Made by a program: the position numbers and the translations under genes. The notes under the pieces were generated by a model that was not told where the DNA came from, searched no databases, and was given only the letters and a program-made list of their open reading frames with translations. A stretch of 64,000 nucleotides of DNA, from the NCBI GenBank assembly GCA_902635895.1, contig CACPPV010000001.1:62001-126000 (forward strand), in the 5' to 3' direction. The stretch is from an uncultured Bacteroidota bacterium (GTDB lineage: Bacteria; Bacteroidota; Bacteroidia; Flavobacteriales; Flavobacteriaceae). Below are positions 10,127-32,520 of this stretch, piece after piece. The first letter of the stretch is position 1. Each line of letters opens with the position of its first letter.

Positions 10127-10160
10127 AAAAAAAGAGTAATAGAAATATTACTCTTTTTTT
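10127..10160 (+). terminator. Rho-independent terminator after the TonB receptor gene
   Basis: AAAAAAAGAGTAATA, loop GAAA, TATTACTCTTTTTTT. The stem is perfect and the T tract is strong. It stands 21 bp after the receptor stop codon. Confidence 0.9.
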
Positions 10161-10185
10161 ATTTCATCAATTAAAAAACATTTTA

Positions 10186-11646: not shown

Positions 11647-11651
11647 ATTAA

Positions 11652-11669
11652 ATAGTATATTTATACTAA
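11652..11669. promoter_or_regulatory. TetR-type operator, copy 2
   Basis: ATAGTAT-ATTT-ATACTAA has one mismatch to TTAGTAT-N4-ATACTAA. It ends 13 bp before the ATG of the flavoprotein gene at 11683, a position where a bound repressor would block transcription. Confidence 0.65.
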
Positions 11670-11682
11670 ACATAATATTAAG

Positions 11683-12660: not shown

Positions 12661-14513
12661 TTTTTGTAAAACTCTAAAAACCAATCTATAGACTCTGGAT
12701 TTTTTAAAGAATCTTTACTAACAGAATCTTTGTGATCTAAACCAGACAATATCTTCTTGATAGGAACTTCAACTTTTTTACCACTTATTGTGTAAGGGAT
12801 GTCAGGAGTTTGATAGATTAAATCTGGAACGTGCCTTGGAGAGCATTTCTGTCTAATTGTAGCTCTTAATCCATCCTTTTTAATTAACATGTTGGATTTA
12901 ACAAACAAAATTAAACTGTTTTTATCTGAGTTATCTAAATGTATAATTAAACTATCTTCAACGTAACTTAAGTCTTTAATTGCGCTGTAAATCTCAGAAG
13001 TACCTATTCTAACTCCAGATCTGTTTAGGGTTGAATCAGATCTTCCATGAACTATAATACCACCACTTGATGTCTCCGTTACCCAATCTCCATGACTCCA
13101 TACTTTATTAAATTTAGAAAAATAACTCTTTTTGTATTTTTCTTGATTTTTATCATTCCAAAAACACAACGGCATGGATATAAAAGGTTTTGACAAAACC
13201 AATTCACCCATTTTATTTTTAATTTCTTTACCATTATCATCCCACACTTCAATGGGTGCTCCAAGCATCTTACACTGAATTTCTCCAGGAATGACTTTAT
13301 CATTTGGATTTCCACCAATAAATGCTGTGCAAACATCAGTGCCACCACTCAAAGAAATAATGTGTGATTTAGGAAAAATTTTACTTAGTCCAATATTGGT
13401 TTCTTTAAATAAAGGAGAACCTGTTGAGCCAACAGTTTTAATGAATGAAAAATCATCAGAAATAAGTTCTTTTGGAGGAACAGACAATTGGGTTTGATAA
13501 AAAACTGCTCCATGTCCAAAATGATTAATTTTTGATTTTTTTGCAAATCTCCATAAAACACCACTGTCAGGATATACTGGAGAACCGTTGTAAATACACA
13601 AAGTTGAACCAAGTAAAAGACTACTTAAAGCGTAATTCCACATCATCCAACCTGTTGTAGAATACCAGAAATAAGAATCTGAAGAATCGACGTTTTGGTG
13701 AATAGCTAAAGCTTTGAAATGTTCTAAAATCATTCCTCCTGTTCTATGAACAATTGCTTTGGGTTTACCGGTTGTTCCAGAGGAAAACAATATCCAAATT
13801 GGATGATTAAATTCGACCGAAGTAAAATTCAAATTATTTTTTTTTGAATCGTTTAAAAAAGTTGATTTGGAACATAAATCTAAAGATGACGTGATAGAAT
13901 CAATAGAATTTTTAAGTTTTGTGACTTTTGATTCCAAACTATAATTTTTTCCACCGTAAATGTAATCTGAATGATAAAATAAAAATTTTGGTTGGATTTG
14001 ATTAAATCTATCGAATACAGAATCGTACCCAAAATCTGGTGAGCATGAGGACCAAATGGCCCCAATTGAATTTGCAGCAAGGAAAGCAGCTACAGTCTCT
14101 GGCGTGTTTGAACAATATCCAACTACCCTATCACCTACTCCAACATTATTTTTGACTAGTATATTTTGAAATTCTAAAGTTTTATTTTTTAAAGAATTCC
14201 AAGAAATCTCTATGTAAGTTCCACTTTCGTCTTGATATTTTATAGCAGGAGAGGTTAACTTATCGTTCTTAAAAACATTTTTGGAATAGCTAATTTCTGA
14301 ATTGACAAACCAACTTGAATTGATAAAATTTTTATTGAATTTATAAATTATTTCTGGGGGGGTTTCAAATTCAACTTCAAAAAAGTTTACTATCGATACC
14401 CAGAAATCAGACATTTCATTAATGCTCCATTTATGAAGTTCCTGATAAGAGTCAAAAACTAAATTATGCTTTAATTTTAAATAGTCTACATATCTAGTTA
14501 AAATCGTTTTCAA
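12651..14513 (-). CDS. Acetoacetyl-CoA synthetase
   Basis: A 620-residue adenylate-forming ligase. It has the acetoacetyl-CoA synthetase features SSGTTGKPKAIVHRTGG, STTGWMMWNYALSSLLLG and SPVYPD, then GGTDVCTAFIGG and the C-terminal SDSTLNRSGVRIGTSEIY with a PYTISGKKVEVPIKKI ending. It converts acetoacetate to acetoacetyl-CoA. The TTG start gives the expected N terminus (LHKWSINEMSDFWVSIVNFF); no ATG fits better. It lies 10 bp downstream of the small membrane protein gene and is probably co-transcribed with it. With the HMG-CoA lyase at 44617 it would recycle the acetoacetate released by leucine- or terpenoid-type breakdown. Confidence 0.92.
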   Translation of the reverse strand: MKTILTRYVDYLKLKHNLVFDSYQELHKWSINEMSDFWVSIVNFFEVEFETPPEIIYKFNKNFINSSWFVNSEISYSKNVFKNDKLTSPAIKYQDESGTYIEISWNSLKNKTLEFQNILVKNNVGVGDRVVGYCSNTPETVAAFLAANSIGAIWSSCSPDFGYDSVFDRFNQIQPKFLFYHSDYIYGGKNYSLESKVTKLKNSIDSITSSLDLCSKSTFLNDSKKNNLNFTSVEFNHPIWILFSSGTTGKPKAIVHRTGGMILEHFKALAIHQNVDSSDSYFWYSTTGWMMWNYALSSLLLGSTLCIYNGSPVYPDSGVLWRFAKKSKINHFGHGAVFYQTQLSVPPKELISDDFSFIKTVGSTGSPLFKETNIGLSKIFPKSHIISLSGGTDVCTAFIGGNPNDKVIPGEIQCKMLGAPIEVWDDNGKEIKNKMGELVLSKPFISMPLCFWNDKNQEKYKKSYFSKFNKVWSHGDWVTETSSGGIIVHGRSDSTLNRSGVRIGTSEIYSAIKDLSYVEDSLIIHLDNSDKNSLILFVKSNMLIKKDGLRATIRQKCSPRHVPDLIYQTPDIPYTISGKKVEVPIKKILSGLDHKDSVSKDSLKNPESIDWFLEFYKNQL

Positions 14514-14523: not shown

Positions 14524-14877
14524 CTAATAACTGATTAAAAAATAAAGAGTTAAAATAAAAAATAAGCCATGAAGTAAGGCTATTTTTAAGTCTCTAGTTT
14601 GCTTTGAATAAAATGAAATTACAACAGAAAGTGAAACCAAAAAGTGAAACACTCCAAATACAATTAAAAAAGGTTTGTGCAAAACTGTGTTATCAAAATC
14701 TAAGACAACCAAAAGGGCAAAAACTGCAATGCTAACAGCAGCTGCACCGTACATTCTTGCTGATGTGATTAGTGAATTACTAGCGTTTTTATAAGCTTGC
14801 ATTAGCTTTGGATTAATCAATAAAATTGATCCTACAAGGAGCTCTAAAATCCCAGTTACAAGTATAAATATTTTCAT
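14524..14877 (-). CDS. Small four-helix membrane protein, related to the N-domain of the sulfatase fusion
   Basis: 117 residues with four predicted helices (about 3-22, 40-60, 68-90, 97-116). I do not recognise a function. The RMYGAAAVSIAVFALL and LHKPFLIVFGVFHFLV stretches match the pattern of the first 115 residues of the protein at 21285 (KMYGVAAFSLGLYALF, LHNPFLIIFSIFNFGV), so this is a free-standing copy of that membrane module. It is divergent from the hydroxylase gene, and the shared 69-bp gap holds a degenerate operator. It heads the transcript that includes acetoacetyl-CoA synthetase. Confidence 0.8.
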   Translation of the reverse strand: MKIFILVTGILELLVGSILLINPKLMQAYKNASNSLITSARMYGAAAVSIAVFALLVVLDFDNTVLHKPFLIVFGVFHFLVSLSVVISFYSKQTRDLKIALLHGLFFILTLYFLISY

Positions 14878-14945: not shown

Positions 14946-15830
14946 ATGATGGATCAAGAAACTATCAGCAAATTAATTCCAGTTGCTGCTCTTTTAGTTT
15001 TAGGAGGGCTTGAAGCCATTGGTGGACTGTATTTTCATGACAAACGTTCTAAAAATGACATTACCATAGAACTGGTTTGCTTAACTGTTCTTCCTACATT
15101 AATACAACCTGCAATTTTAGCTTTTGTGCTATTTACAATGGATTCTTGGTTTTTTTCTTATGAAGATTTGTTTATTAATTCTCATTTTTTATGGCATGTG
15201 TTGGCTTTTCTAATATTAGATGATTTAACTCAATACCTATGGCATAGATTCTCACATGAAAATCCTTTTATGTGGAAACTCCACAGGCCTCATCATGTGG
15301 TTGAAGAAATGGGTGTTTTAGTAACTTACAGAAACGCTTTCATGTATTATGCTTTTATGCCCGGTTTATGGTTTACAGGTATTCTTATTTTTTTAGGAAT
15401 GACTGAAGTTTATCTTTACTACTTACCTATTAAAATGACTGTCATAATAGCTGCTCATAGTGAAACAAAATGGGACAGATTTTTATATAAATACAAAGTT
15501 CTCCATCCTTTAGCTTGGATCATTGAAAGAACCATTTCAACTCCAAGTACTCATTATGCACATCATGGTTTGACTTCCGAAGATGGAGTTTCAAATCCTA
15601 ACGGTAATTATGGAAATCTTCTTTTTTTCTGGGATATTTTGTTTGGAACTGCTAAAATCACTAGAAAATATCCAACCAAGTTTGGAGCTTGGAATAAGAT
15701 GAAAGAGCCTTGGTATGTTCAATTAATGTTCCCTATTTTAAAATCCAAAGACTCCAGAAGTGAACTTAGTTCCATAAAAACAAACATGGATTATGATCCT
15801 TCTAAGGATTACAAGGACTTCGATAGTTGA
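14946..15830 (+). CDS. Sterol desaturase / fatty acid hydroxylase superfamily membrane di-iron protein
   Basis: 294 residues with several N-terminal membrane helices. It has the three histidine clusters of the superfamily: HRFSH (HX3H), HRPHH (HX2HH) and HYAHH (HX2HH), which bind two irons. It would hydroxylate or desaturate a lipid, sterol or carotenoid-like substrate with O2. It is the first gene of a five-gene operon under operator copy 3, with the next start 3 bp after its stop. The AHSETKWDRF stretch and Trp/His-rich loops are typical. The exact reaction cannot be assigned. Confidence 0.88.
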   Translation: MMDQETISKLIPVAALLVLGGLEAIGGLYFHDKRSKNDITIELVCLTVLPTLIQPAILAFVLFTMDSWFFSYEDLFINSHFLWHVLAFLILDDLTQYLWHRFSHENPFMWKLHRPHHVVEEMGVLVTYRNAFMYYAFMPGLWFTGILIFLGMTEVYLYYLPIKMTVIIAAHSETKWDRFLYKYKVLHPLAWIIERTISTPSTHYAHHGLTSEDGVSNPNGNYGNLLFFWDILFGTAKITRKYPTKFGAWNKMKEPWYVQLMFPILKSKDSRSELSSIKTNMDYDPSKDYKDFDS

Positions 15831-15833
15831 TAT

Positions 15834-16649
15834 ATGAAAAACTTAAATGATAAAGTTGTAGTCATTACAGGTGCTGGTTCTGGAATTGGGAGATCTTTAG
15901 CTTTAAAAATGTACAAACTTGGAGCAAAACTAGCTTTAAACGATCTCAAAAAAAATGCTTTGGATGAAACTTTATCAATGTTCGATAATCCTGAAAATAT
16001 ATACACCGAAACCTTTGATGTCTCTGTCAAAAAAGATTTTGATCTATTTGCAAAAAATGTGATCAACCATTTCAAAAAAGTGGATGTATTAATTAATAAT
16101 GCTGGCATCACTGTTGGAAGTTATTCTGTGTCTGAAACATCAATTGAAAAGTATGAGAAAGTCATAGGTATTAATTTATGGGGAATGATTTACGGAACAC
16201 TATGTTTTCTTCCAGAGTTAAGAAAACAAACGGAATCAAGTATAGTAAACATTTCTAGTGTTTGGGGATTGCTTGGTTCACCCTTTCAATCCGCTTACAG
16301 TGTATCTAAATTTGGGATAAGAGGTTTCAGTGAAGCATTGGCAGCAGAAGAATTTTGTATTAATTCTGGAGTTGTTGTCACAAGTGTTCATCCTGGTGGA
16401 ATCAAAACTAATATTGTTAGAAATATTGAGGGACAAACCCTTACCGAGAATCAATTAAAAAAATTAGATGCTCATTTTCCAACCACAGCCGATAAAACCG
16501 CAAATAAAATAATTGAAGGTATAACTAAAAAGAAAACAAGAATTGTAATAGGCCCTGATGCTAAACTAATGTATAGATTAACCAGATTTTCTAATAGAAT
16601 TACTATGAAATTCATAGTCAACTGGGCAAAAAAAATGATGAAAATATAG
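15834..16649 (+). CDS. Short-chain dehydrogenase/reductase
   Basis: 271 residues. Cofactor motif TGAGSGIG (about 11-18), NNAG, the catalytic Ser in NISSVWG and YSVSK as the YxxxK pair. The C-terminal extension (about 230-271) is basic and partly hydrophobic, suggesting membrane contact. It interconverts an alcohol and a ketone with NAD(P)H. It stands between the hydroxylase and the metallo-hydrolase in one operon, so oxidation of the newly made alcohol to a ketone for the Baeyer-Villiger enzyme is a reasonable inference. Confidence 0.9.
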   Translation: MKNLNDKVVVITGAGSGIGRSLALKMYKLGAKLALNDLKKNALDETLSMFDNPENIYTETFDVSVKKDFDLFAKNVINHFKKVDVLINNAGITVGSYSVSETSIEKYEKVIGINLWGMIYGTLCFLPELRKQTESSIVNISSVWGLLGSPFQSAYSVSKFGIRGFSEALAAEEFCINSGVVVTSVHPGGIKTNIVRNIEGQTLTENQLKKLDAHFPTTADKTANKIIEGITKKKTRIVIGPDAKLMYRLTRFSNRITMKFIVNWAKKMMKI

Positions 16650-16651: not shown

Positions 16652-17680
16652 ATGAAATCTTTGATAAAATATATATTTTCTTTACTTGTATTTGTAATAT
16701 TTATGTCTTTGTCATTTATTAATTTTTATCCTGAAAAACTTTCTAAATCTTTGACAAGTTTCACTATTGAAAGAAATCAAAAAAGTTTATCAATTAATGA
16801 GAATGAAATTACAGTGTTTACTGTAGGTACAGGCTCTCCTTTAAATACTAGTAGAGTTCAATCTGGAACAGCTGTGTTTATCAAAGACAAATTTTTCATT
16901 TTTGATGTTGGTGACGGAGTTGTGACAAAAGCAGAAGAAATGAATCTTCCTTTAAATGAGTTAGATGCAGTATTTATAACTCATTTTCACTCTGATCATT
17001 ACATAGATCTCCCTTATTTAATTAATAGATCTTGGGTTCTTGGAAGAAATAAAGACTTAAATATTTATGGACCTGAAGGATTGAAAAATATCCTCGATAG
17101 CAATTACGATTTTTTAAAACTAGAAAACAAACACCGAGTTGATCATCATGGTAGTGAAATAATGAACACTGAATATGCATATGGTGTATCTAATGAATTT
17201 AAGATAGAGGACAATAAAAAAATTATATACGACTCTGATGAAATTAAAATTACTGCCTTCAATGTTGATCATTATCCAGTTGAACCATCTGTTGGATATG
17301 CTATTGAATACAATAATAAAAAAGTAGTGATAAGCGGAGACACAAAAGCAAATGAATTAGTGTTTAAAATGGCCACAAATGCTGATTTATTAATACACGA
17401 GGCAATATTAAATTCTTTATTAAAAAATACAGTTAAAATTCTAGAAAATAAGGAAATGCACAGAAATTCACATATTGTTCATGATATTCAAGATTATCAT
17501 ACCCCACCAAATGAAATTGTTAAATTAGCCAATATAGCCAATGTTAAAACCTTAGTATTACATCATTTAGCTCCATCACCTGATAATATTATTATTAATA
17601 AACTCTATGAAAAACAAATCAAAGATTTTAATGGAAAGGTATATTTGGCAAAAGACGGTGACAAATTTATTGTTAAATAA
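16652..17680 (+). CDS. Membrane-anchored metallo-beta-lactamase-fold hydrolase
   Basis: 342 residues. Residues 5-24 form a signal anchor, so the enzyme domain is probably outside the cytoplasm. The domain has VFTVGTGSP, the metal motif THFHSDHYIDL (HxHxDH), SGDTKAN and LHHLAP, the arrangement seen in RNase Z-like and arylsulfatase/phosphodiesterase-like branches. An exported location argues against tRNA processing and for hydrolysis of a small ester, sulfate or lactone. It is third in the operon: 2 bp after the SDR gene and directly abutting the DUF1214 gene. Confidence 0.85.
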   Translation: MKSLIKYIFSLLVFVIFMSLSFINFYPEKLSKSLTSFTIERNQKSLSINENEITVFTVGTGSPLNTSRVQSGTAVFIKDKFFIFDVGDGVVTKAEEMNLPLNELDAVFITHFHSDHYIDLPYLINRSWVLGRNKDLNIYGPEGLKNILDSNYDFLKLENKHRVDHHGSEIMNTEYAYGVSNEFKIEDNKKIIYDSDEIKITAFNVDHYPVEPSVGYAIEYNNKKVVISGDTKANELVFKMATNADLLIHEAILNSLLKNTVKILENKEMHRNSHIVHDIQDYHTPPNEIVKLANIANVKTLVLHHLAPSPDNIIINKLYEKQIKDFNGKVYLAKDGDKFIVK

Positions 17681-18253
17681 ATGAAGAATTTAAGTCAAAA
17701 TAAAATCTTAATTCCTGTAGTGACATTGCTGTCAATTTTACTTGGTATTTACATAGCTGTAACAAAAATAAATTCTTCTACACAAAACAGCGAATTGTCA
17801 ATTAAAAATGGTAACTGGATAGTTAATCCAAACATGGATTTAAAAGACAATTATCAAAGAGCTTATATAGCTAGAATTGGAGTTTTTGCTCTTGACGAGA
17901 AAGAGGCACTTTATTTTTTGGCTAGCAAAGACTCAGATGGTCAAATTTTAAGTTCAGATTTTGATTATCAAATAATTGGTAAACCACCAAAAGGTAGGTA
18001 TTGGAGCTACACCTTGTATGGTGAAGATTATTTCTTGGTTAAAAACGATCATAATATTCATGCAATAAATAAAGAAAACTTTGATATAAATAAACCCATT
18101 ATAATTTCCTCAAAAAGAAAAGAAGTTAATTGGCTTCCATCTGGAAATGAAAAAGAATTTCATATTACTCTAAGGATTTATAATCCTGAAAAAGATGTTT
18201 ACGAAAACCTAGAGTCTATAAAACTTCCTAAAATAAAAAGAGTTGGGCTATGA
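17681..18253 (+). CDS. DUF1214 domain protein, membrane-anchored
   Basis: 190 residues: an N-terminal helix (about 9-27), then a domain with AYIARIGVFALDEKEALYF, GRYWSYTLYGEDYFLV and VNWLPSG...FHITLRIYNP, the pattern of DUF1214. Its ATG directly follows the stop of the MBL gene and its own stop overlaps the next start (ATGA). In many bacteria DUF1254 and DUF1214 form one protein; here they are separate genes with the DUF1214 half first. The function of the family is unsettled. Confidence 0.75.
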   Translation: MKNLSQNKILIPVVTLLSILLGIYIAVTKINSSTQNSELSIKNGNWIVNPNMDLKDNYQRAYIARIGVFALDEKEALYFLASKDSDGQILSSDFDYQIIGKPPKGRYWSYTLYGEDYFLVKNDHNIHAINKENFDINKPIIISSKRKEVNWLPSGNEKEFHITLRIYNPEKDVYENLESIKLPKIKRVGL

Positions 18254-18765
18254 AAAAGTTAATTCTTTATCTTTTATTATCATTTATAGTAAGTTATGGA
18301 TCTTATAACGTCACTATTATAATGATTCCGAACATAATTTATAAAGTATTTCATTATAAAATTGTAAATAATCAAAATGTACATGATAATGAATTAAAAC
18401 ATTTTGATATACCCAACGACCAATCACGAGATGTTGTCATGCCTAATCCAGATTTTTTATATTCAACAAGTTTTTATGACTTAACTAATGGAGATCTTAA
18501 TTTAAAAGGTAAAATGCCTGACTCTACATACTGGTCTGTTTCATTTTATAAGCCTAATACTGTTAATTGGTTTGTAAAAAACGACAATGAATTTATTGAC
18601 AACAACCTTGATATGAAAATCTCTCTTTCTAATTCTAAACAAGAAAACAGTATAGTTTCACCTGTAAAAAAAGGATTTATGATTATACGAATATTAGTTG
18701 AAAAGAAAGATAGCAAATCAATAGATTATTATAAAGCGCTACAAAAAAGCATAACCTTAAATTAG
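18250..18765 (+). CDS. DUF1254-like protein, membrane-anchored
   Basis: 171 residues with an N-terminal helix (about 4-24). The core RDVVMPNPDFLYSTSFYDLTNG followed by YWSVSFYKPNTVNWF resembles the N-terminal DUF1254 half of DUF1254/DUF1214 proteins. It overlaps the DUF1214 gene by 4 bp, so the two products probably pair. It is the last gene of the operon; operator copy 4 follows 14 bp later. Both proteins seem to face the periplasm. Confidence 0.7.
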   Translation: MKKLILYLLLSFIVSYGSYNVTIIMIPNIIYKVFHYKIVNNQNVHDNELKHFDIPNDQSRDVVMPNPDFLYSTSFYDLTNGDLNLKGKMPDSTYWSVSFYKPNTVNWFVKNDNEFIDNNLDMKISLSNSKQENSIVSPVKKGFMIIRILVEKKDSKSIDYYKALQKSITLN

Positions 18766-18779
18766 TTTTTTTTATTAAA

Positions 18780-18797
18780 TTAGTATTTAAATACTAA
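18780..18797. promoter_or_regulatory. TetR-type operator, copy 4
   Basis: A perfect 18-bp palindrome, TTAGTAT-TTAA-ATACTAA. It ends 6 bp before the ATG of the dehalogenase-like gene and is the only separation between two operons, so it probably covers the promoter or transcript start of the second. Confidence 0.8.
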
Positions 18798-18803
18798 TTA
18801 TTA

Positions 18804-19961
18804 ATGAATAAATTAAAAAGACAAATTCAAAAGCTAATTGTTAATTTGATGGGGTCTCCCATTAAAATTGACCCTAGTATAAAGAACAGAAAGGTCAAAA
18901 CAATTGCTCCAATTCCGAAAGAAGTTTTCTGGGACGCTAGTGTTAAAATTCATAAAACAAAAAGTGGAATTGAATATGTAAAAACTCCAGAAGAATGTTT
19001 TTCAGAACTTCCTGGATATAATTTTAATGAAAATTATTGTGACATAAATGGACTTAAAATGCACTATGTTGATGCTGGTCCAAGCGATGGAAAAATTCTT
19101 TTATTACTTCATGGTCAACCGGTTTGGTCCTATTTGTACCGTACAATGATTCACGAACTGGTTGCAAAAGGATATAGATGTATTGCGCCAGATTTAATAG
19201 GGATGGGAAAGTCAGATAAACCAATTTCAATTAAATATCATGTTTATGACACTCATTGTGATAATGTTCTAACTTTTATTAAAAAATTGAAACTCAAAAA
19301 AATTACTCTTTTTTGTCAGGACTGGGGAAGTTTAATTGGTCTTAGAATTGCTGGTGAAAATTCGAAACTCTTTTCTGGTATTATTGCAGCTAATGCTGAA
19401 CTGCCAAAATTTACTGAAGAATCAAATCCATTACATATACCTGAGCCAGTAAAAATTAATACTAAAATTAAAAGTTTTAAAAAAGCAATGGCATATCACT
19501 TTTTGAATAATAAAGGATTTGATGTAAATATCTTTCAAGTTTGGATTAACTATTGTATTACCACTCCTTTTGTTCATATTAGGGAGATTATGACACTATC
19601 CTTATCGAAAGATTTCAAAAAGGATCAAAAAATTCTTGATGCCTATGCTGCTCCTTTTCCATCGTTTATTTATATGGCTGGCCCAAGAACCTTACCATCA
19701 ATGAATGCTGGAATTACCGGTCAAACTTTAAAAGCAATTGATGGATTAAAAAAATTTAAAAAACCTTTCCTATCTTTAATTGGTTTACAAGATAAGCTTC
19801 TGGGAACTCCAAGAATTCAGAACAAATGGATTAAAATTATTCCAGGTGCCAAGGGTCAAGATCATGAACAGTTCAAAGAAGCAAACCATTTCATTCAAGA
19901 AGATATTGGAGAAAAAATGGCTGATAGAATGCACAAGTTTATTTTAAAAAATAAAATTTAA
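18804..19961 (+). CDS. Haloalkane dehalogenase-like alpha/beta hydrolase (DhlA-type, subfamily I)
   Basis: 385 residues, with about 70 more at the N terminus than DhlA. It has HGQPVWSYLYR (103-113; DhlA has HGEPTWSYLYR), the nucleophile elbow CQDWGSLIGL with Asp173 and the halide-side Trp174, the cap stretch AYAAPFPSFIYMAGPR that closely follows DhlA, Asp330 in GLQDKLLG and His362 in ANHFIQED. An Asp rather than Ser nucleophile fits dehalogenases and epoxide hydrolases; the Trp after it and the cap favour dehalogenase. Release of halide from a carbon chain is therefore likely but not proven. It is first in a five-gene operon and overlaps the next gene by one base. Confidence 0.85.
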   Translation: MNKLKRQIQKLIVNLMGSPIKIDPSIKNRKVKTIAPIPKEVFWDASVKIHKTKSGIEYVKTPEECFSELPGYNFNENYCDINGLKMHYVDAGPSDGKILLLLHGQPVWSYLYRTMIHELVAKGYRCIAPDLIGMGKSDKPISIKYHVYDTHCDNVLTFIKKLKLKKITLFCQDWGSLIGLRIAGENSKLFSGIIAANAELPKFTEESNPLHIPEPVKINTKIKSFKKAMAYHFLNNKGFDVNIFQVWINYCITTPFVHIREIMTLSLSKDFKKDQKILDAYAAPFPSFIYMAGPRTLPSMNAGITGQTLKAIDGLKKFKKPFLSLIGLQDKLLGTPRIQNKWIKIIPGAKGQDHEQFKEANHFIQEDIGEKMADRMHKFILKNKI

Positions 19962-20809
19962 TGAAGAAAAAAATTATAAAAATTATTGGTTTATTATCAG
20001 TTCTTGTTTTGTTGTTTTTTATTTCTCTACCTACCCTTTTAAATAAAGCAGGCTTACACCCAGAATTCGAAAGTAAAAAGTATGATTTCACAAATAAAAA
20101 AGCAGTTATAATTTCAACCAGTCACAGTACTTTAAACAAACCTGGCGAAACAACTGGAAAGTTAACTGGAGTATTTGCATCGGAGCTTACTGTACCATAT
20201 TATGAATTTACAGATTCTGGAATTGAAGTTGATCTAGCAAGTATTAATGGTGGAACAATTCCAATAGACCCAGAATCGTTTTATTATGTTGTAAAAACAA
20301 GCTCAGACGATAGGTATCTTGAAGATCAAATTCTAAAAGAAAAAGTAAAAAATTCTATTAAAATAGATGAACTTGAAATTGATAACTACGATCTAGTATT
20401 TATTGCAGGTGGTTGGGGAGCTGCATACGATTTGGGTTATTCTGAAATATTAGGAAAAAAAATAAGTCAAGCTTATTATAATCCAAAATCTATAATTGGT
20501 GGAGTCTGTCATGGAGTTCTTGGTTTTATAAACGCTAAAGATTCCATAGGAAATCTAATTATAAAAAACAGAAGAATGACTGGAGTAACCGACAAACAAA
20601 TTAAAGAACTTGGAATTGATTTTACGCCTCAACATCCTGAAGAAGAATTGATAAAAGCTGGAGCTATTTTCGAAAGTAAAACAGCAATTAGAGATGTATT
20701 TGCCAATTTAACTGTTGTAGACGATGAATCTAAATTTGTAACTGGGCAGAATCAAAATGCAGGACATGAAACTCCCCAAAAAATGATGGAGATTTTAAAA
20801 AATAAATAA
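19961..20809 (+). CDS. Membrane-anchored DJ-1/PfpI family protein
   Basis: 282 residues. Residues 5-24 form an anchor. The domain has KKAVIISTSH, DLVFIAGGWGAAYDL and the nucleophile elbow GGVCHGVLGF with the family Cys, followed by a His-rich end (GQNQNAGHETP). The long form resembles Hsp31-like and secreted PfpI-like proteins. Activities in the family range from glyoxalase and deglycase to hydratase, so no reaction is assigned. Start and stop codons overlap those of both neighbours by one base (TAATG), which couples its translation to the dehalogenase-like and membrane proteins. Confidence 0.83.
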   Translation: MKKKIIKIIGLLSVLVLLFFISLPTLLNKAGLHPEFESKKYDFTNKKAVIISTSHSTLNKPGETTGKLTGVFASELTVPYYEFTDSGIEVDLASINGGTIPIDPESFYYVVKTSSDDRYLEDQILKEKVKNSIKIDELEIDNYDLVFIAGGWGAAYDLGYSEILGKKISQAYYNPKSIIGGVCHGVLGFINAKDSIGNLIIKNRRMTGVTDKQIKELGIDFTPQHPEEELIKAGAIFESKTAIRDVFANLTVVDDESKFVTGQNQNAGHETPQKMMEILKNK

Positions 20810-21285
20810 TGACTTTTAATTTTAAAAACATATTACCTAAAAGTGCTAACAATAACTTTAAAGGTCACAAGTTAGCACTGTTGGGTTTTATTTTGTTTTT
20901 GGTTCTTATGACCTGGAGGGCAATTATTCATATGTTATTTGAACAGTACGGATACCATGATATTGCAAGTTTTTTAGAAATTTCAGCAGACCCTGATCCA
21001 ATGCCGATAATCTACAGATTTTTTTCTTTATGGGGATTTGCCCAACTAATTTTTTGTCTAGTTTGTTGGGTGGTAGTTTTTAAATACAGATCATTAATCC
21101 CACTAATGTGTTTATTTTGGATTTTTGAATGGGGATTCAGAGTTTTCGGATATCCTCTAATTCGGGAAGAAATTGCTATACAAGGTATATATACTAGCAG
21201 TGTAACACCTGGTGTTTCTTATGCTTTTGTGCCAGTATTAATTGCAATTATTTTATTTGGACTTTCTATATTAGATAAGAAATAA
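20809..21285 (+). CDS. Four-helix inner-membrane protein, unknown function
   Basis: 158 residues with about four helices (24-43, 68-90, 95-112, 132-152) and short polar loops. Not recognised. Conserved-looking charged residues inside helices (TWRAIIHMLFEQYGYHD, WIFEWGFRVFG) suggest a function beyond simple anchoring. It overlaps both neighbours by one base. It might partner with the sulfatase fusion encoded directly downstream. Confidence 0.75.
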   Translation: MTFNFKNILPKSANNNFKGHKLALLGFILFLVLMTWRAIIHMLFEQYGYHDIASFLEISADPDPMPIIYRFFSLWGFAQLIFCLVCWVVVFKYRSLIPLMCLFWIFEWGFRVFGYPLIREEIAIQGIYTSSVTPGVSYAFVPVLIAIILFGLSILDKK

Positions 21286-23606
21286 TGAGAAAATTTTTTC
21301 TTTTAACGGCAATAATAGAAATTATAGCAGGCCTAAGTTTATTTTTTGCTGCTGAAAAAATACCTGATTTAATTAACGCCGATCCACTCACTATTGGTTT
21401 TGCTAAAATGTATGGTGTAGCTGCATTTTCTTTAGGCCTATACGCTTTATTTTCTTGGAAGTTTTTTAATTTAAAAATATTACATAACCCATTTTTGATA
21501 ATTTTTTCAATTTTCAATTTTGGAGTTGCTTTTGCAGTCGTTCAGTCCAGCTTAAATTTTGGATTTGAAAATCCAGCACCCGGATATTTTCATTTAATAT
21601 TAGGATTAGTCGCAATATATTTTCTTCTTAAAAAAAAAAATTTAATTCCTAATTACAGTAAAAACTTCTTTTACTTTTTTCTTTTAATTTTTGCTGGGAT
21701 ATTTACTACTAACTACACTCTTTTTGCAATGCCTAGGCTTTTTACAAGCGAATCTTTATTAAGAGTGATTACTTTATTTATAATTTTTGTTTTTCCTCTT
21801 CTCTATTATTTAAATAAAATTGCTTTAAACAAATTCAGCTCAAAACTTAAAAGAATTGTCTTTATGGCTTTATTTGGCTCTTTAGCAGCCTGGATTATTC
21901 AATTAATTGAAATCCATCTATATCACAATGAAATTAATGTAGAATCTCCTATAGGATTATTTGAAGATGAGTTCATAAGAACCATTATATATGTTTTACC
22001 TACAATTCTAGTAGCTGAAATACTGTGGAAGTATTTAAAAAGTAAACAAAGAATTTTTTATTCTGGGGTTTTTATAATGTTTATATACTGTTTTGCATCT
22101 TTTTATAGTTCTTTTGTTTTTTCTGATGCAAATCCTGCAAAGTATTCTGAACTAAAAAATCAAAACACTCAACTTCCTAACGTTATTTTAATTGTAGCAG
22201 ACGATTTAGGTTACAATGATATTTCAGCCAACGGAAATGAATTAATTCAAACTACAAACATTGACCAAATAGGTCGAAATGGAATTAATTTTTCAAGAGC
22301 TTATGCAACAGCATCGGTTTGTGCTCCCTCAAGAGCTGCTTTTTTAACTGGAAATTATCAACATAGGTATGGCTTTGAATTTTTACCTGATTTATTTAAT
22401 TATGGTCCAAGAGTAAGAAAAGCAGATTTTAAAAGATTTGGACATCAAGATAATTTTAAAATGTGGTATGAAAAAGATGTTCCTATTAACCAAAGAGGTT
22501 TAGATCCCTATGTAAATACAATAGGTGATTATTTAAAAAAAATGGGATACCAAACTTCTGTAATTGGTAAATGGCATATGGGTACTCACCCAAAATTTAG
22601 TCCAAAAAATTATGGATTCGATTACCACTATGGAATTACTGGTGCTGCGTCTCTATATGCTCCTATTGGAAAAGAAAATATTGTAGATTCAAAACACACT
22701 TGGGATTTTGCAGATTTCATAACATGGCAAGTATCACAATATTACACATTAGAAAATGGGAAAAATTCAATTCCCAAAAAATCAGAATATCTTACTGATT
22801 TATTTACAAAAAAAGCTGTTAGTTACATAAAAGAAAATAAAGACAGACCTTTTTTCCTTCATCTTTCTCATATGGCTCCTCATGGACCTTTTCAAGCTCA
22901 GAGGAAATATTATGAAATGTTTGATCACATAGAGGACCATAACAAAAGAGTTTATTATGCTATGATTAAAAATTTAGACGACAGTGTGGGAGAAATTAAA
23001 AAAACTCTTGAAAGGGAAGGAATTTTAGACAACACTTTAATTATTTTTACAAGTGACAATGGAGGAGCAACGTATACTAGAGCAACTAACAACTCGCCCT
23101 ACATTGGAGGAAAAATGTCCAATTTTGAGGGAGGAACTGTAGTTCCTATGATGATGCAATGGAATAACAAAATAAAGCCTCAACAAAATTACAGTCATAT
23201 AGTAAGTTTACTTGATATTGTTCCTACGATATTAGACGCAGTTGAGTCACCTTCATTAAGTAATAAGTACGATGGTGTGTCATTGCTTCCTTTTTTTAAT
23301 TCTATTAATAAGAAACCTCACAATGAATTATTTTGGAAGACAGGATATGTTAAATCTATTGTTTCAAAAAATTACAAACTACATATAAACGAAAAAGAAA
23401 ACTTTAAATTTTTAATTAACTTAGAAAAAGATGCAGAGGAAGGAAATAATTTAATTTCTAAATATCCAGAAAAAGCCGAAGAACTAACTTTAAAATTAAA
23501 TAATTGGATTAAAGATTTACGAGAACCAAAGTGGGATTCTAATGCTGACGTTTCCATACCAATTGATAATTCTGAAAATTCTAAAACATTTTATTTTCCC
23601 TGGTAA
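21285..23606 (+). CDS. Sulfatase fused to a nine-helix membrane domain
   Basis: 773 residues, much longer than the usual 450-550. Residues 1-118 form the four-helix module also found alone at 14524. Residues 120-275 add about five more helices. From about 298 comes a type I sulfatase domain: NVILIVADDLGYNDIS (metal Asp pair), CAPSRAAFLTG with Cys346 as the formylglycine precursor, IGKWHMGTHP and FTSDNGGA. An odd number of helices with the N terminus inside puts the sulfatase in the periplasm. It would hydrolyse a sulfate ester close to the membrane. A maturase for formylglycine is not in the window. The reading frame is continuous, so the fusion is real in this sequence. Confidence 0.88.
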   Translation: MRKFFLLTAIIEIIAGLSLFFAAEKIPDLINADPLTIGFAKMYGVAAFSLGLYALFSWKFFNLKILHNPFLIIFSIFNFGVAFAVVQSSLNFGFENPAPGYFHLILGLVAIYFLLKKKNLIPNYSKNFFYFFLLIFAGIFTTNYTLFAMPRLFTSESLLRVITLFIIFVFPLLYYLNKIALNKFSSKLKRIVFMALFGSLAAWIIQLIEIHLYHNEINVESPIGLFEDEFIRTIIYVLPTILVAEILWKYLKSKQRIFYSGVFIMFIYCFASFYSSFVFSDANPAKYSELKNQNTQLPNVILIVADDLGYNDISANGNELIQTTNIDQIGRNGINFSRAYATASVCAPSRAAFLTGNYQHRYGFEFLPDLFNYGPRVRKADFKRFGHQDNFKMWYEKDVPINQRGLDPYVNTIGDYLKKMGYQTSVIGKWHMGTHPKFSPKNYGFDYHYGITGAASLYAPIGKENIVDSKHTWDFADFITWQVSQYYTLENGKNSIPKKSEYLTDLFTKKAVSYIKENKDRPFFLHLSHMAPHGPFQAQRKYYEMFDHIEDHNKRVYYAMIKNLDDSVGEIKKTLEREGILDNTLIIFTSDNGGATYTRATNNSPYIGGKMSNFEGGTVVPMMMQWNNKIKPQQNYSHIVSLLDIVPTILDAVESPSLSNKYDGVSLLPFFNSINKKPHNELFWKTGYVKSIVSKNYKLHINEKENFKFLINLEKDAEEGNNLISKYPEKAEELTLKLNNWIKDLREPKWDSNADVSIPIDNSENSKTFYFPW

Positions 23607-23612: not shown

Positions 23613-24416
23613 ATGAAAAACAATAGTCTAACAATCGAATCTGTATCAAATGGGCCACTATTTGGACAGACCTTTAATTTGGAAATGGTAAATAGTTTAC
23701 CCTCAATAAAAAGAAAGTTTGTTTTGTCTAGAATTCCGTTTATCCCATATTCGTTAAAGTCTAAACTTTTTTCTTTAAGTAAAAAAGAGATAAATAGTAA
23801 TGGTCTAATTTTACATGGTGGGGGTCCAATTTATAGTAATGGTACTATCAAAGAAAACGAGTGCTACAACCCATTGGAATTAGATCCAAAAGATCCAAAT
23901 TTTATTGAGAAAACATCTGGTGGTTTAAAACTAGTTGATAACGATCCAATGGTTCAAACTGCAAAATATCCAGAAAGAGTTATTGGAAATTTTACAGCTA
24001 TGAATAGATTTTTTACTGATATTTCAAGTGAGTTTATTGCTAGTTCAATTAATAGAAAATTGATACCAACAAGTTCTAAAGATCAAATAATTCAAGCATA
24101 CATTAAAAGTGCAGAAGAATGTGAAAAGTTAAATGATAAAATTATACTTGAACAAACTGCAACCTTTTGTTTTAGGTCAAAAAACTGCGCAGATGTAAAC
24201 GAACCTGCCAAGGATACCATAACTGGAATAATGTTATTTGTATGGGGCATTAAAGGACAAGTATTTAATGGAACAATAATCGGAGGAACAGGAAAATTTA
24301 ATGGAATTAGTGGAGAGTTTACTAGAGAAAGGCTACTCGCTCCAAATTTTTCTGGAGCTGAAACTTTTAGAATTTCATTTCCAACATATTTAAAGCCTGA
24401 TTATTATCCCCAGTAA
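23613..24416 (+). CDS. Unknown protein with allene oxide cyclase/dirigent-like C-terminal stretch
   Basis: 267 residues with no signal peptide. Not recognised as a named family. The C-terminal third has GQVFNGTIIGGTGKFNGISG, which resembles the GGTGKF turn of allene oxide cyclase and dirigent-type beta barrels that hold hydrophobic ligands. The N-terminal part has SNGPLFGQTFNL and ILHGGGPIYSNGT, which look like a related barrel strand pattern (DUF3237-like wording at best). It is last in the operon and convergent with the TetR gene. A lipid-binding or cyclase-like role is an inference. Confidence 0.7.
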   Translation: MKNNSLTIESVSNGPLFGQTFNLEMVNSLPSIKRKFVLSRIPFIPYSLKSKLFSLSKKEINSNGLILHGGGPIYSNGTIKENECYNPLELDPKDPNFIEKTSGGLKLVDNDPMVQTAKYPERVIGNFTAMNRFFTDISSEFIASSINRKLIPTSSKDQIIQAYIKSAEECEKLNDKIILEQTATFCFRSKNCADVNEPAKDTITGIMLFVWGIKGQVFNGTIIGGTGKFNGISGEFTRERLLAPNFSGAETFRISFPTYLKPDYYPQ

Positions 24417-24419: not shown

Positions 24420-25067
24420 TTAAAGATTTTTAAAGTCCTTATCTATTTTTTTTGAAATTTCTTTTTGTTTTGACTTGTACCTTTCAAGTCCTTTATTGGT
24501 TAAATAAGGATAGAAATGACCCATTATTTCATCTAATATTTTATGATATCTATCTTTAGATTCATCTAAAACCTCCCATGTAGTTAAGGAAGAAGAAATA
24601 ATGGCCCAATTATTTCTAGCAAATGTTCTATACTGACCATCAAACGCTTCTTTTTTCATGTAGCCATTTTTAATACTTATGTTGATGTACTCAATCGAAA
24701 ATTTTTCATTAATGATTATTACATCTTTATAAACCGATTTAGCGTTTGGAACTAAATTTATAATTTCAAGAATATCTCTAAAAAAGAACCTGTAATTAAA
24801 TAAAAAAATAAGATTATTTCTTAAAATTTTGTAAAGTGACATATGCTTTAAAGATTCTCTTTGAGTATTTTCGATTTCAACTAATTTTCTAATCATATAA
24901 TAAATTATATAATCCATTAAATCTTTCTTTGTTTTAAAATGATACGTTAAATTTCCTGGGCTTATATCATTATATTCAGCGATATCTTGTAATCTTACAT
25001 TAGCCAATCCTTTATTATTAAATAATAAAATCGAGCTTTCAACTATTTTTATTCTTGTACTACTCAC
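24420..25067 (-). CDS. TetR family transcriptional regulator, probable master regulator of the cluster
   Basis: 215 residues. The N-terminal domain has the TetR layout: IKIVESSILLFNNKGLANVRLQDIAE, then the recognition helix region ISPGNLTYHFKTKKDL (about 35-50). The C-terminal half is helical, as expected for ligand binding and dimerisation. The start is a GTG at 25067. The gap to the divergent operon holds a perfect 18-bp palindrome 25 bp from this start, and copies of that palindrome stand in front of four other transcripts in the window. I infer autoregulation and control of the cluster, with a CoA thioester or pathway intermediate as likely ligand. Confidence 0.9.
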   Translation of the reverse strand: MSSTRIKIVESSILLFNNKGLANVRLQDIAEYNDISPGNLTYHFKTKKDLMDYIIYYMIRKLVEIENTQRESLKHMSLYKILRNNLIFLFNYRFFFRDILEIINLVPNAKSVYKDVIIINEKFSIEYINISIKNGYMKKEAFDGQYRTFARNNWAIISSSLTTWEVLDESKDRYHKILDEIMGHFYPYLTNKGLERYKSKQKEISKKIDKDFKNL

Positions 25068-25987: not shown

Positions 25988-27127
25988 ATGAATTTTGAAC
26001 TGAGCGAGGAACATATAATGATAAGACAAGCGGCTAGAGATTTTGCTCAAAACGAGCTTAAGAAGGGTGTTATTGAACGTGACTCAAAATGTGAATATCC
26101 AGAGAAACAAGTCAAAAGAATGGCTGAGCTGGGCTTTCTTGGAATGACCGTCTCAACCAAATATGGAGGAGGTGGAATGGATACAATTTCATATGCCTTG
26201 GCTGTTGAAGAAATTTCAAAAATCGACAACTCTTGTTCGGTAATTTTGTCGGCTCATAATTCATTAGCTTGTTGGGGAATTGAAGAATATGGAACTGAGG
26301 AACAAAAAGAAAAATATTTAAAACCTCTTGCAATTGGACATAAAATTGGTGCCTTTTGCTTGTCCGAACCAGAATCGGGATCAGATGCAACTCAACAAAA
26401 AACAACAGCAATTGATAAAGGTGATCATTATGTTTTAAACGGAGTCAAAAATTGGATAACCAATGGATTAAAGGCAGATATTTATGTTGTTATCGCTCAA
26501 AGCAATTCAGATTTGGGACACAGAGGAATTAATGCATTTGTTATCGACAGCAATACAAATGGAATTTCTTGTGGACCAAAAGAAGATAAATTAGGTATTA
26601 GATCCTCTGACACATGTTCGGTTATTTTTCAAGATGTGATTGTTCCAAAAGAAAACAGACTAGGACCAGAAGGTTTTGGATTTAAATACGCAATGAAAAC
26701 GTTAGAGGGAGGAAGAATTGGTATAGCAGCCCAAGCTCTTGGATTAGCAGAAGGAGCTTATGAAATGGCACAGGAATACTCCAAACAAAGGAAAACATTT
26801 GGAAAACCAATTAGTCAACATCAAGCGATCTCGTTTAAACTAGCCGAAATGGCAACAGATATTGAAGCAGCTAGACTTTTAGTCTACAAAAGTGCAAATA
26901 AAAAAGATCGAGGAGAATCATATGGCTATTCAAGTTCTATGGCAAAACTTTATGCTTCTGATATGGCTATGAAACATACCGTTGAAGCTGTTCAAATTCA
27001 TGGTGGTAATGGATTTGTCAAAGAATATCATGTTGAAAGATTAATGAGAGATGCAAAAATTACTCAAATTTACGAAGGGACTTCTGAAATTCAAAAAATC
27101 ATAATTTCAAGAAATTTATTAAAATAA
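25988..27127 (+). CDS. Acyl-CoA dehydrogenase (short/branched-chain type)
   Basis: 379 residues with the full family layout: N-terminal helices, CLSEPESGSDATQQKT (FAD/substrate strand), KNWITNG, GGRIGIAAQALG, RKTFGKPISQHQAI, VEAVQIHGGNGF and IYEGTSEIQK with the catalytic Glu near residue 363. It makes a trans-2-enoyl-CoA and passes electrons to ETF. The size and motif set fit short-chain, isovaleryl or 2-methylacyl dehydrogenases. Its stop overlaps the next ATG by one base (TAATG). Confidence 0.93.
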   Translation: MNFELSEEHIMIRQAARDFAQNELKKGVIERDSKCEYPEKQVKRMAELGFLGMTVSTKYGGGGMDTISYALAVEEISKIDNSCSVILSAHNSLACWGIEEYGTEEQKEKYLKPLAIGHKIGAFCLSEPESGSDATQQKTTAIDKGDHYVLNGVKNWITNGLKADIYVVIAQSNSDLGHRGINAFVIDSNTNGISCGPKEDKLGIRSSDTCSVIFQDVIVPKENRLGPEGFGFKYAMKTLEGGRIGIAAQALGLAEGAYEMAQEYSKQRKTFGKPISQHQAISFKLAEMATDIEAARLLVYKSANKKDRGESYGYSSSMAKLYASDMAMKHTVEAVQIHGGNGFVKEYHVERLMRDAKITQIYEGTSEIQKIIISRNLLK

Positions 27128-28092
27128 TGAAATCAAAAACAAAACAATTTTTAACTGATACAGGAGCTTCAATTCCAGTTATTTGTGGTCCTATGTATCC
27201 AGGATCTAACCCTGAATTGATTGCAGCAGTTTCTGAAGCAGGAGGTTTTGGTGTGGTTCAACCTGTAGCTCTAACATCGTTGTATGGACATGATTTTAGA
27301 GAAGGTTTAAAGCTCATAAAAAAACTTACAAAAAAACCTTTTGGTGTAAACTTTACAATTTTTGGAGGTGCTAACAAAAAATACCACAACCAAATGAAAG
27401 AATGGATGGAGATTTCCATTGAAGAAGATGTTAAATTTTTTCTTACATCTCTTGGAAAACCTCATGAAATTGTAAAAATTGCAAAACAACACGGAATAAA
27501 AGTTTATCACGATGTACCAAACAAAAAAGTTGCACTTGCCATGGTAGATTGTGGAGTTGATGGATTAAACTGTATAAATTGGAGAGCTGGAGGACAAACA
27601 GGCATTCAATCGGCAGAAAAATTTATTGAAGAATTAAAGGATGTAGAGATCCCATTAATATGTGCTGGTGGAATTGGAAATAGAGAGGACTATAATAAGG
27701 TTATAGATATGGGTTATGCAGGTGTTCAACTTGGAACTAGGTTTTTAGCTTCTAAAGAATGTATTGTAACTGAAAGTTATAAGCAAGCTATTGTTGATTC
27801 TGAGGAAAAAGATATTGTTTGGACTAATAAAGTTGCGGGAAATAATTCCTCTGTTATAAAAACAAAAGACATAATGAAAGGGGGTCTAAGAACAGGACCG
27901 ATTATTAATTTTATGCTCAAAAGACCTAAACTTAAAAAATACGCAAGAATGTATTTAATGAGTAAAGGCCTGAGAAATTACAGTAAAACTGCATTTGATG
28001 ATAATGTTCAATTTTGGCAAGCTGGAAAAGGAGTTGGGGGAATTAAATCAATTGAGAGTTGTGAAGATATTTTAAATGAATATAAAATTTAA
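27127..28092 (+). CDS. Nitronate monooxygenase-family flavoprotein with catalytic His replaced
   Basis: 321 residues. FMN-barrel features are PVICGPMYPGSNPELIAAVS, a central NWRAGGQTGIQ loop, CAGGIGNREDYNKVIDMGYAG and QLGTRFLASKE. In the loop where nitronate monooxygenases have AxGxxxGGHxG, this protein has AGGQTG, so the catalytic His is missing. That argues against nitronate oxidation and for a reductase role on an acyl-CoA or enone, as known for the IpdC branch of the fold in steroid degradation. It is translationally coupled to the acyl-CoA dehydrogenase and the sulfatase by one-base overlaps on both sides. Confidence 0.85.
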   Translation: MKSKTKQFLTDTGASIPVICGPMYPGSNPELIAAVSEAGGFGVVQPVALTSLYGHDFREGLKLIKKLTKKPFGVNFTIFGGANKKYHNQMKEWMEISIEEDVKFFLTSLGKPHEIVKIAKQHGIKVYHDVPNKKVALAMVDCGVDGLNCINWRAGGQTGIQSAEKFIEELKDVEIPLICAGGIGNREDYNKVIDMGYAGVQLGTRFLASKECIVTESYKQAIVDSEEKDIVWTNKVAGNNSSVIKTKDIMKGGLRTGPIINFMLKRPKLKKYARMYLMSKGLRNYSKTAFDDNVQFWQAGKGVGGIKSIESCEDILNEYKI

Positions 28093-29750
28093 TGAGAAAG
28101 ATTTTTTTTAGACTTCTTATTGTTTTTATTTTAATTGTTGTTGCAATTGGAATATGGTTTTCTCAAAACTGGTATAAAATGCCAAAATATATATCCAACT
28201 TAAAAAATCCAACTACTGAAAATGTAACAATTGAGTGGGAAAATGGACCTGAAACAAGAACTAACTTTAAACCAAACATAATCGTTGTTCTTATCGACGA
28301 TCTAGGCTTTAACCAAATTAGTTCTTATGGCGGAGGAATGTCAAATGGAAATTTTAAAACACCCAATATAGATAATTTAGCTGAAGATGGAGTATTGTGT
28401 ACAAATGGATATTCCTCAAGCCCAATTTGTTCTCCGTCCAGAGCATCTCTTTTAACAGGAAGGTTTCCTACTCGGTTTGGATATGAGTTCACTCCAACTA
28501 CTTCGAGTATGATGAAGGCAATAAGTCTTTTTTCAAAGAAAAATGAGGTAGCTGATGGTGTTTATTACGATAATAGAGAAGAAAATATTATTGATATTGA
28601 GCAAATGGGCCTTCCTCAATCAGAAAAAACTATTGCAGAAATGCTAAAGCCTGAAGGTTATCATAATATTCATATTGGAAAGTGGCATCTGGGTCACTCC
28701 AAAGACTTTTTACCAAGAAAACATGGTTTTGATGAAAGCCTCAGAATAGATCAAGGATCATTGTTTTTACCAGAAGATGATAAAAATGTAATTAACGCTA
28801 AATTAGAATTTGATCCGATTGATAAAGTACTTTGGGGAAATCTTCCATATGCCGTTAATTTTAATGAAGGTCCAAGAATGAATCCCGATGGTCACTTAAC
28901 CGATTATTTAACAAATGAAGCAGTAAAAGCTATTAAAAAAAATAAAAATAGACCTTTCTTCTTATACCTAGCCTATTGGGCTGTTCATAGCCCACTTCAG
29001 GCCAAAAAAGAAGATTATGAAAAATTATCCTTTATTGAAAACCATAATGAAAGAGTCTTAGCCTCTATGGTAATGACAGTGGACAGAGGAGTTGGTAAAA
29101 TAAGAGATGTACTTAAAAAAAATAATATTGATGATAACACAATTATCATTTTCACTAGTGATAACGGTGCACCAGGATACATAGGTTTGCCTGATCTAAA
29201 CAAACCATATAGAGGTTGGAAGTTAACTCATTTTGAAGGAGGAGTTCATGTTCCATTTATAGTTAGCTATCCAAACAAAATTCCTAAAGGGACAACTTAT
29301 AACGGAAGAGTTTCTAACTTGGACATTTTTTCAACTGTAGCAAGTGTAGCTGAAGTTGATATGAACAGAAACGACTTGAAAGAAATAAAGTTTGATGGAG
29401 CTAATGTACTTCCCTATTTAATTGGAGAAAACGAAGGAGAACCCGAGAGAGTTCTATTTAATAAATCGGGGAATTATTCCTTTATAATTAAAGAAGGATG
29501 GAAACTTCAGGTCGATTTAGTTCAAAATAAAAAATGGCTTTATAATTTGAATGAGGATCCAACAGAACAAATAAACTTGATTAAATCTGATCTTGAAAAA
29601 CTAAATGAACTTGAAAAAATTTTAAACAAAAAAATATCTGAACAAGTTAAACCAATATGGCCTAGTTTACTTGACTGGCCAATTTTTATTGATAAAACTT
29701 TGGATGAAACAGTAAACAAAAATGACGAATATATATTCTGGGCTAATTAA
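28092..29750 (+). CDS. Membrane-anchored formylglycine sulfatase
   Basis: 552 residues. Residues 4-25 are a signal anchor, then a type I sulfatase: NIIVVLIDDLGFNQI, CSPSRASLLTG with Cys113 as formylglycine precursor, IGKWHLGHSKDF, FTSDNGAPG and a C-terminal subdomain. It removes sulfate from an ester outside the cytoplasm. The RFGYEF after the active site resembles RYGFEF in the fused sulfatase at 21285, so the two are a related pair. It lies within an operon of otherwise CoA-ester enzymes, which suggests desulfation of a lipid-like substrate rather than a polysaccharide. Confidence 0.92.
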   Translation: MRKIFFRLLIVFILIVVAIGIWFSQNWYKMPKYISNLKNPTTENVTIEWENGPETRTNFKPNIIVVLIDDLGFNQISSYGGGMSNGNFKTPNIDNLAEDGVLCTNGYSSSPICSPSRASLLTGRFPTRFGYEFTPTTSSMMKAISLFSKKNEVADGVYYDNREENIIDIEQMGLPQSEKTIAEMLKPEGYHNIHIGKWHLGHSKDFLPRKHGFDESLRIDQGSLFLPEDDKNVINAKLEFDPIDKVLWGNLPYAVNFNEGPRMNPDGHLTDYLTNEAVKAIKKNKNRPFFLYLAYWAVHSPLQAKKEDYEKLSFIENHNERVLASMVMTVDRGVGKIRDVLKKNNIDDNTIIIFTSDNGAPGYIGLPDLNKPYRGWKLTHFEGGVHVPFIVSYPNKIPKGTTYNGRVSNLDIFSTVASVAEVDMNRNDLKEIKFDGANVLPYLIGENEGEPERVLFNKSGNYSFIIKEGWKLQVDLVQNKKWLYNLNEDPTEQINLIKSDLEKLNELEKILNKKISEQVKPIWPSLLDWPIFIDKTLDETVNKNDEYIFWAN

Positions 29751-29763
29751 ATAAAATAATAAA

Positions 29764-30549
29764 ATGATTAAGGAAAAATTTGAATTAAATAATAAAATAG
29801 CTGTAATTACAGGAGCATCAAAAGGAATAGGTAAAGCAATGGCACAAGGATTAGCAGAATTTGGAGCTACAGTTATTGTCAGTAGTAGAAAGCAAGAAGC
29901 CGTTGATGAGGTTGCTAAAGAATTTACAGATCTTGGATTAAAGGCAGATTCTATTGAATGTCATGTAGCAAAACACGATGACAGAGTAAAACTAGTTGAA
30001 AAAGTGATCAAAAAATACGGTCGTATTGATGTTTTAATAAATAATGCAGGGACTAATCCATATTTTGGACCAATTAGTAAAATGCCTGTTAACCTATATC
30101 AAAAAACAATGGACATTAATGTTAATTCTGCTATTGAATTAAGTAACCTGGTTTATCCTCACATGAAAAAACAAGGTGGCGGAAGTGTCATACACATTAG
30201 TTCAATTGAAGGTCTTCATCCAAGTGCATTTATGGCTGCTTATAATGTTAGTAAGGCTGCATTAATTATGGCTGGAAAAAACCAATCAATTGAATGGGGG
30301 AGAAATAACATTAGAGTCAATATTATATGCCCAGGATATGTAAAAACAAAACTAAGCGCAGCATTATTAGAAAACGAAGTGTCTAGAAATAGCTTTTTAA
30401 AAAATTGTTCTTTAGGAAGAGGATCAACACCGGATGAAATGGCAGGATTAGCTGTATTTCTAGCGTCAGATGCAAGCTCTTATATGACAGGAACAACTAT
30501 AGTTAATGATGGAGGTTTAATGAATGCTCCTCAAATATCAATGCAATAA
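29764..30549 (+). CDS. Short-chain dehydrogenase/reductase
   Basis: 261 residues. Motifs are [12 protein letters not shown] (17-28), NNAG, ISSIEG with the catalytic Ser, YNVSKAA (YxxxK), and [12 protein letters not shown]. The ending [15 protein letters not shown] is typical of the FabG-like classical branch. It probably oxidises a hydroxyacyl-CoA or ring alcohol. It follows the sulfatase by 13 bp and precedes the ACAD10/11-type dehydrogenase by 11 bp. Confidence 0.92.
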
Positions 30550-30560
30550 ATTATACTTTT

Positions 30561-32517: not shown

Positions 32518-32520
32518 ATT

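Follow-up and report, generated by a model that had tools for sequence, protein, structure and literature searches.

A formylglycine-type sulfatase preceded by nine predicted membrane helices in a conserved gene cluster of a marine flavobacterial genus

Introduction

Sulfatases of marine Bacteroidota are usually read as polysaccharide enzymes. The window analyzed here, a 64,000-nucleotide stretch of contig CACPPV010000001.1 from an uncultured member of the Flavobacteriaceae, holds a frame in which a sulfatase domain follows a long helical region. This locus raises the questions of whether such a fusion is genuine, whether its catalytic part is that of a true sulfatase, and what nine helices might contribute to an enzyme of this type.

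Results

The frame at 21285-23606 (+) begins with ATG and is open across 773 codons. Residues 1-280 of the predicted protein account for the helices, and residues 298-750 form a complete formylglycine-type (FGly) sulfatase. The features of the gene, and of one related gene nearby, are as follows.

21285..23606, + strand: polytopic sulfatase gene, 773 aa; nine predicted TM helices, then an S1-type FGly sulfatase domain
21285..21635, + strand: module A (residues 1-117); four predicted TM helices, homologous to the free-standing protein at 14524-14877
21636..22124, + strand: module B (residues 118-280); five predicted TM helices and, on the periplasmic side, a loop that is highly conserved
22173..23603, + strand: sulfatase domain (residues 297-773); PF00884 match, periplasmic by the charge rule
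22320..22334, + strand: FGly motif CAPSR (residues 346-350); the FGly cysteine is residue 346
14524..14877, - strand: free-standing module A paralogue, 117 aa, four helices, 6.4 kb upstream of the fusion

The Pfam Sulfatase profile (PF00884) matched residues 298-653 of the fusion with an E value of 4e-60 and a score of 204 bits, against a curated cutoff of 25. The sequence CAPSRAAFLTG, which begins at residue 346, fits the C/S-x-P-S-R FGly motif and is invariant across orthologues. A preliminary description of the locus, made from the DNA letters, had regarded this active site as intact; that was borne out, and the remaining S1 residues were also present (DD 306-307, K429/H431, H529/H533, DN 591-592, and K610). 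The metal and catalytic residues (DD, K-x-H, H, DN, K) align with those of 6prm and are invariant in 10 orthologues. The genome contains a gene for an FGly-generating enzyme of FGE type (PF03781, E 4e-81), and a search of the same genome with the anSME profile returned no match. Cys346 would be a substrate for oxidation to formylglycine, and the fusion is probably active as a sulfatase.

Sequence searches matched the fusion to carrageenan sulfatases with an E value of 5e-75 and, more distantly, to human steryl-sulfatase (STS, S1_3; 1p49, 8eg3), likewise an FGly sulfatase, with an E value of 1e-36, a difference that rules out an STS-type assignment by sequence. The nearest solved structures, those of the carrageenan sulfatases PsS1_19B and ZgCgsA (6prm, 6psm, 9hh2), resemble the fusion in fold and in the complete catalytic set. 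Placement in S1_19 is tentative: these best solved relatives by sequence and fold share about 31% identity with the fusion's catalytic domain, a level that does not fix specificity. The three entries comprise the catalytic domain only, whereas the fusion adds nine preceding helices and a non-polysaccharide genomic setting.

The order of the two parts is shared with LtaS, EptA, and YejM (PbgA, LapC), in which N-terminal helices (five in YejM, against nine here) are followed by a periplasmic or external sulfatase-fold domain. This common order, and a weak match to the YejM profile, would suit a membrane phosphotransferase-like or lipid-modifying enzyme of that kind and no sulfatase at all. However, the YejM profile scored 31.8 bits on the fusion against a cutoff of 825. 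Furthermore, whereas LtaS, EptA, and YejM have a catalytic Thr, lack the FGly motif, and are of phosphatase or phosphotransferase type, the fusion carries Cys346 in an intact CAPSR motif along with the full S1 catalytic set, its closest relatives are the carrageenan sulfatases, and the polytopic LtaS-type proteins inspected in the survey described below were without the motif. Membership of the LtaS/YejM type was ruled out by the FGly motif and the YejM profile score, and an activity of this kind is highly improbable.

Hydropathy analysis of residues 1-280 revealed eight strong peaks and missed a helix at ∼34-59 that is present in the AlphaFold model. Helices in the model span residues 2-25, 34-59, 63-92, 98-116, 126-140, 155-183, 187-217, 223-251, and 255-279, so that nine TM helices are predicted. 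The open frame, the PF00884 match, the hydropathy profile, and the model together agree with the earlier account of nine helices ahead of a sulfatase in one frame. The full model had a mean pLDDT of 66 and a pTM of 0.59, with a good sulfatase core that matches PsS1_19B at 31% identity; no structural match was found over its helices. When the helical part was modelled alone, fair confidence was obtained for module A only and module B was of low confidence. A fold search with this weak model as the query gave nothing below an E value of 2, and a PDB profile search with the helical part gave no match. Structure prediction, which the preliminary description had suggested for the helix bundle, thus recovered the nine helices and the sulfatase fold, with low confidence in module B.

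Averaged over 10 orthologues, Lys and Arg residues numbered 16.6 in the predicted cytoplasmic loops versus 1.8 in the periplasmic loops. By the charge rule, this bias in combination with nine helices indicates an N-in/C-out orientation that would place the catalytic domain in the periplasm, in support of the location first proposed for it.

Orthologues were sought with the N-terminal 293 residues as the query against 100 related genomes. The fusion is carried by 12 of 21 further congeneric genomes (in one case with a broken frame), and other genera among the 100 gave at most chance-level matches. Orthologue records reached by a second route came from marine Flavobacteriaceae genomes. All nine full-length orthologues that were fetched are exactly 773 aa long, and each has an ATG start that either overlaps the upstream stop or follows closely after it. 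Values of dN/dS, counted by the Nei-Gojobori method with dS high for distant pairs, were about 0.10-0.26 for residues 1-117, 0.17-0.35 for residues 118-292, and 0.07-0.12 for the sulfatase. Purifying selection therefore acts on the helical and sulfatase halves alike, module B being the least conserved part of the fusion and faster-evolving than the sulfatase.

The congeneric orthologues, their constant length, and purifying selection on both halves indicate that the fusion is real. Two ways in which it might have been spurious had been named at the outset. An assembly artefact was ruled out by the same fusion in 12 of 21 congeners, the constant 773 aa, and the selection observed. An internal start giving an ordinary sulfatase is unlikely on the same evidence, the helices being constrained; moreover, no start-capable codon between residues 43 and 297 is common to more than four of 10 orthologues. 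The broken orthologue (L032, G016:C17) loses its frame at a run of 14 A that falls precisely at the junction of the two helical modules; the sequence stretch concerned also contains unresolved bases. The break is either a sequencing indel or a real mutation, and the two look alike at this position.

To gauge how unusual the architecture is, 119 genomes of the class were sampled, 94 of which have sulfatase-domain proteins. Eighteen score-ranked regions were inspected, including ten of long frames (>700 aa); one had no usable frame, and one frame of 1476 aa was left out. In this sample, no inspected protein combined the FGly motif with more than one N-terminal helix: polytopic ones lacked the motif, and motif-bearing ones had one such helix or none. 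A literature search on polytopic sulfatases in bacteria and on the degradation of sterol sulfates by flavobacteria found nothing directly relevant. As far as the sample shows, the fusion is an S1 FGly sulfatase in a genus-restricted membrane architecture: the pairing of nine helices with an FGly sulfatase, which the preliminary description had singled out as unusual, is confined to the genus in the genomes searched and is new for an FGly sulfatase. It represents an architecture of membrane sulfatase distinct from that of steryl-sulfatase and from that of LtaS/EptA.

The fusion lies within a long gene cluster, the members of which are listed below.

4619..14513: upstream part, with acyl-CoA synthetases, alpha/beta hydrolase, TonB-dependent receptor, Baeyer-Villiger-like flavin monooxygenase, and nitronate-monooxygenase-like protein
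14946..16649, + strand: fatty-acid-hydroxylase-like protein and SDR, with which the conserved cluster begins
16652..17680, + strand: MBL-fold hydrolase; best PDB match 8gyg, named arylsulfatase
17681..20809, + strand: DUF1214, DUF1254, haloalkane-dehalogenase-like hydrolase (HLD; Asp in QDWG), and DJ-1/PfpI protein
20809..21285, + strand: four-helix membrane protein, 158 aa, directly upstream of the fusion with start/stop overlap
23613..24416, + strand: protein without a Pfam match, the next gene after the fusion in most congeners for which data exist
24420..25067, - strand: TetR-type regulator
25988..35851, + strand: rest of the cluster, with acyl-CoA dehydrogenases, nitronate-monooxygenase-like protein, SDRs, APH-like protein, histidine phosphatase, and CoA carboxyltransferase
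28092..29750, + strand: second sulfatase, 552 aa; one N-terminal TM helix, no lipobox, CSPSR motif

DUF1214 and DUF1254 (17681-18765, +) are two separate, overlapping genes, of which DUF1214 comes first. A further conserved cluster protein at 25149-25985 (+) has no Pfam match and aligns with a DUF1330-like gene of G078, a genome from another family of the order.

Gene order is largely kept in the genus. Ahead of and including the fusion it runs FA hydroxylase, SDR, MBL, DUF1214, DUF1254, HLD, DJ-1, (four-helix protein), fusion; this is followed by the protein without a Pfam match, TetR, DUF1330-like, acyl-CoA dehydrogenase, NMO, and the second sulfatase, and then by SDR, acyl-CoA dehydrogenase, SDR, APH, histidine phosphatase, and carboxyltransferase. 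The nearest solved relatives of the flavin monooxygenase in the upstream part are Baeyer-Villiger enzymes, including phenylacetone and steroid monooxygenases. The second sulfatase and the fusion's sulfatase domain share 35% identity. The best solved relative of the MBL-fold protein is named arylsulfatase (8gyg), so the protein may be a sulfatase of a second fold class; counting it, the cluster may hold genes for three sulfate-ester hydrolases, drawn from two fold types. No steroid-ring-specific genes were identified. From its gene content, the cluster as a whole looks suited to breaking down a compound that is sulfated and either hydrophobic or alicyclic, the identity of which no single gene fixes.

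This setting bears on whether the fusion might instead be an S1_19-like carbohydrate sulfatase that trims sulfated oligosaccharides in the periplasm, its membrane domain being incidental and its catabolic neighbors unrelated. Such an enzyme would be in keeping with the S1_19 carrageenan sulfatases as best matches by sequence and fold and with a marine genus rich in sulfatases. Nevertheless, across the genus the fusion is retained within a long cluster of genes for CoA and redox enzymes; the cluster genes scanned included no SusD, glycoside hydrolase, or polysaccharide lyase; and the identity to the carrageenan sulfatases leaves specificity unfixed. A role in carbohydrate desulfation is considered quite unlikely.

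The nearest relative of the four-helix protein at 20809-21285 is 55% identical and precedes a single-anchor sulfatase in G078, where this sulfatase, a relative of the fusion, adjoins the four-helix protein, an HLD-like hydrolase, and an NMO-like gene. Relatives of the four-helix protein in G062 and G645 are not beside sulfatases. Because the protein is missing in some congeners, the fusion is independent of it.

The helical part itself consists of two modules, a point absent from the preliminary description, with module A as the fused relative of the free-standing four-helix protein. The two are 28-32% identical and have MYG, LHxPFL, H103, and YF in common, and the free-standing paralogue is kept close to the cluster in congeners. 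Three members of the module A family gave a weak match to DUF4345 (PF14248), the best with an E value of 7e-5; this profile's curated cutoff was not reached, the fusion itself had no match, and a genome scan at E 0.1 was empty. Relatives of module B beyond the genus were not found among about 440 genomes searched, and when 346 genomes of the phylum were searched for the helical domain, only the window's own genome gave a match. The most conserved stretch of the helical region, WxxQLIEIxLYHxEIxVxSPxGxxEDEFxR (203-232), lies around the seventh loop and on the active-site side of the membrane. Its acidic and His residues would offer a natural contact point for substrate or for the catalytic domain.

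It is possible, if doubtful, that the helices are an elaborate anchor only, acquired when the cluster's neighboring membrane-protein genes were fused to an ordinary single-anchor sulfatase, and that they keep the enzyme near an importer with no contact to substrate. Material for such an event exists in the module A paralogue 6.4 kb away and in another four-helix protein directly upstream, and module B evolves faster than the sulfatase. The second cluster sulfatase and the G078 relative each have a single helix, which indicates that nine helices are not required for this enzyme type. By contrast, the constant length of the nine helices and the strong conservation of the loop at 203-232 exceed the needs of an anchor, and the helices are under purifying selection.

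Discussion

With moderate confidence, the fusion is read as an inner-membrane, periplasm-facing sulfate-ester hydrolase, the helices of which hold the catalytic domain and most likely aid an amphipathic substrate, the product being degraded by the cluster. In the mechanism proposed, the Cys of CAPSR would be converted to formylglycine by the FGE-like enzyme, and the sulfatase domain, kept on the membrane by the nine helices, would cut the sulfate ester on the periplasmic side. The helices would most likely offer a sulfated, amphipathic compound a surface to dock on or a hydrophobic way in, by means of the conserved acidic/His loop of module B. After uptake, the desulfated product would pass to the Baeyer-Villiger-like monooxygenase, CoA ligases, acyl-CoA dehydrogenases, and the carboxylase. 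The substrate of the hydrolase is suggested to be a hydrophobic sulfate ester; that it is a sterol or terpenoid sulfate, and that the helices take a direct part in substrate access, is speculative. In EptA and LtaS, the helices are needed for the lipid-linked reaction and the soluble domains alone keep hydrolase activity, a useful precedent for helices mattering to substrate choice in the fusion.

The membrane-embedded substrate envisaged in the preliminary description is plausible in view of the conserved lipid/xenobiotic-type cluster, which is circumstantial evidence; counting against it are the activity of the closest solved relatives on carrageenan and the existence of single-helix relatives. 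STS is membrane-tied and acts on hydrophobic sulfates, with two helices inserted within its sulfatase sequence, as opposed to nine ahead of it in the fusion. A bolder account, in which the fusion is an independently arisen bacterial counterpart of steryl-sulfatase in a marine planktonic flavobacterium, its helices taking up a membrane sterol or terpenoid sulfate, presenting it to the periplasmic S1 site, and passing the product on to a dedicated catabolic cluster, is unlikely.

A polytopic FGly sulfatase encoded among genes of CoA-dependent catabolism suggests that sulfated lipids, sterols, or terpenoids serve as a food source in their own right. Such compounds are present in the sea, since sterol sulfates are among the products of diatoms (PMC6356472). 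The cluster at 4619-35851 constitutes a defined, testable unit. Other sulfatases of the genome mostly open with a lipobox-like signal, whereas the two cluster sulfatases have TM helices. Two more sulfatases lie in the window outside the cluster, at 46924-48306 and 55524-57065 (-), the second with a lipobox-like start.
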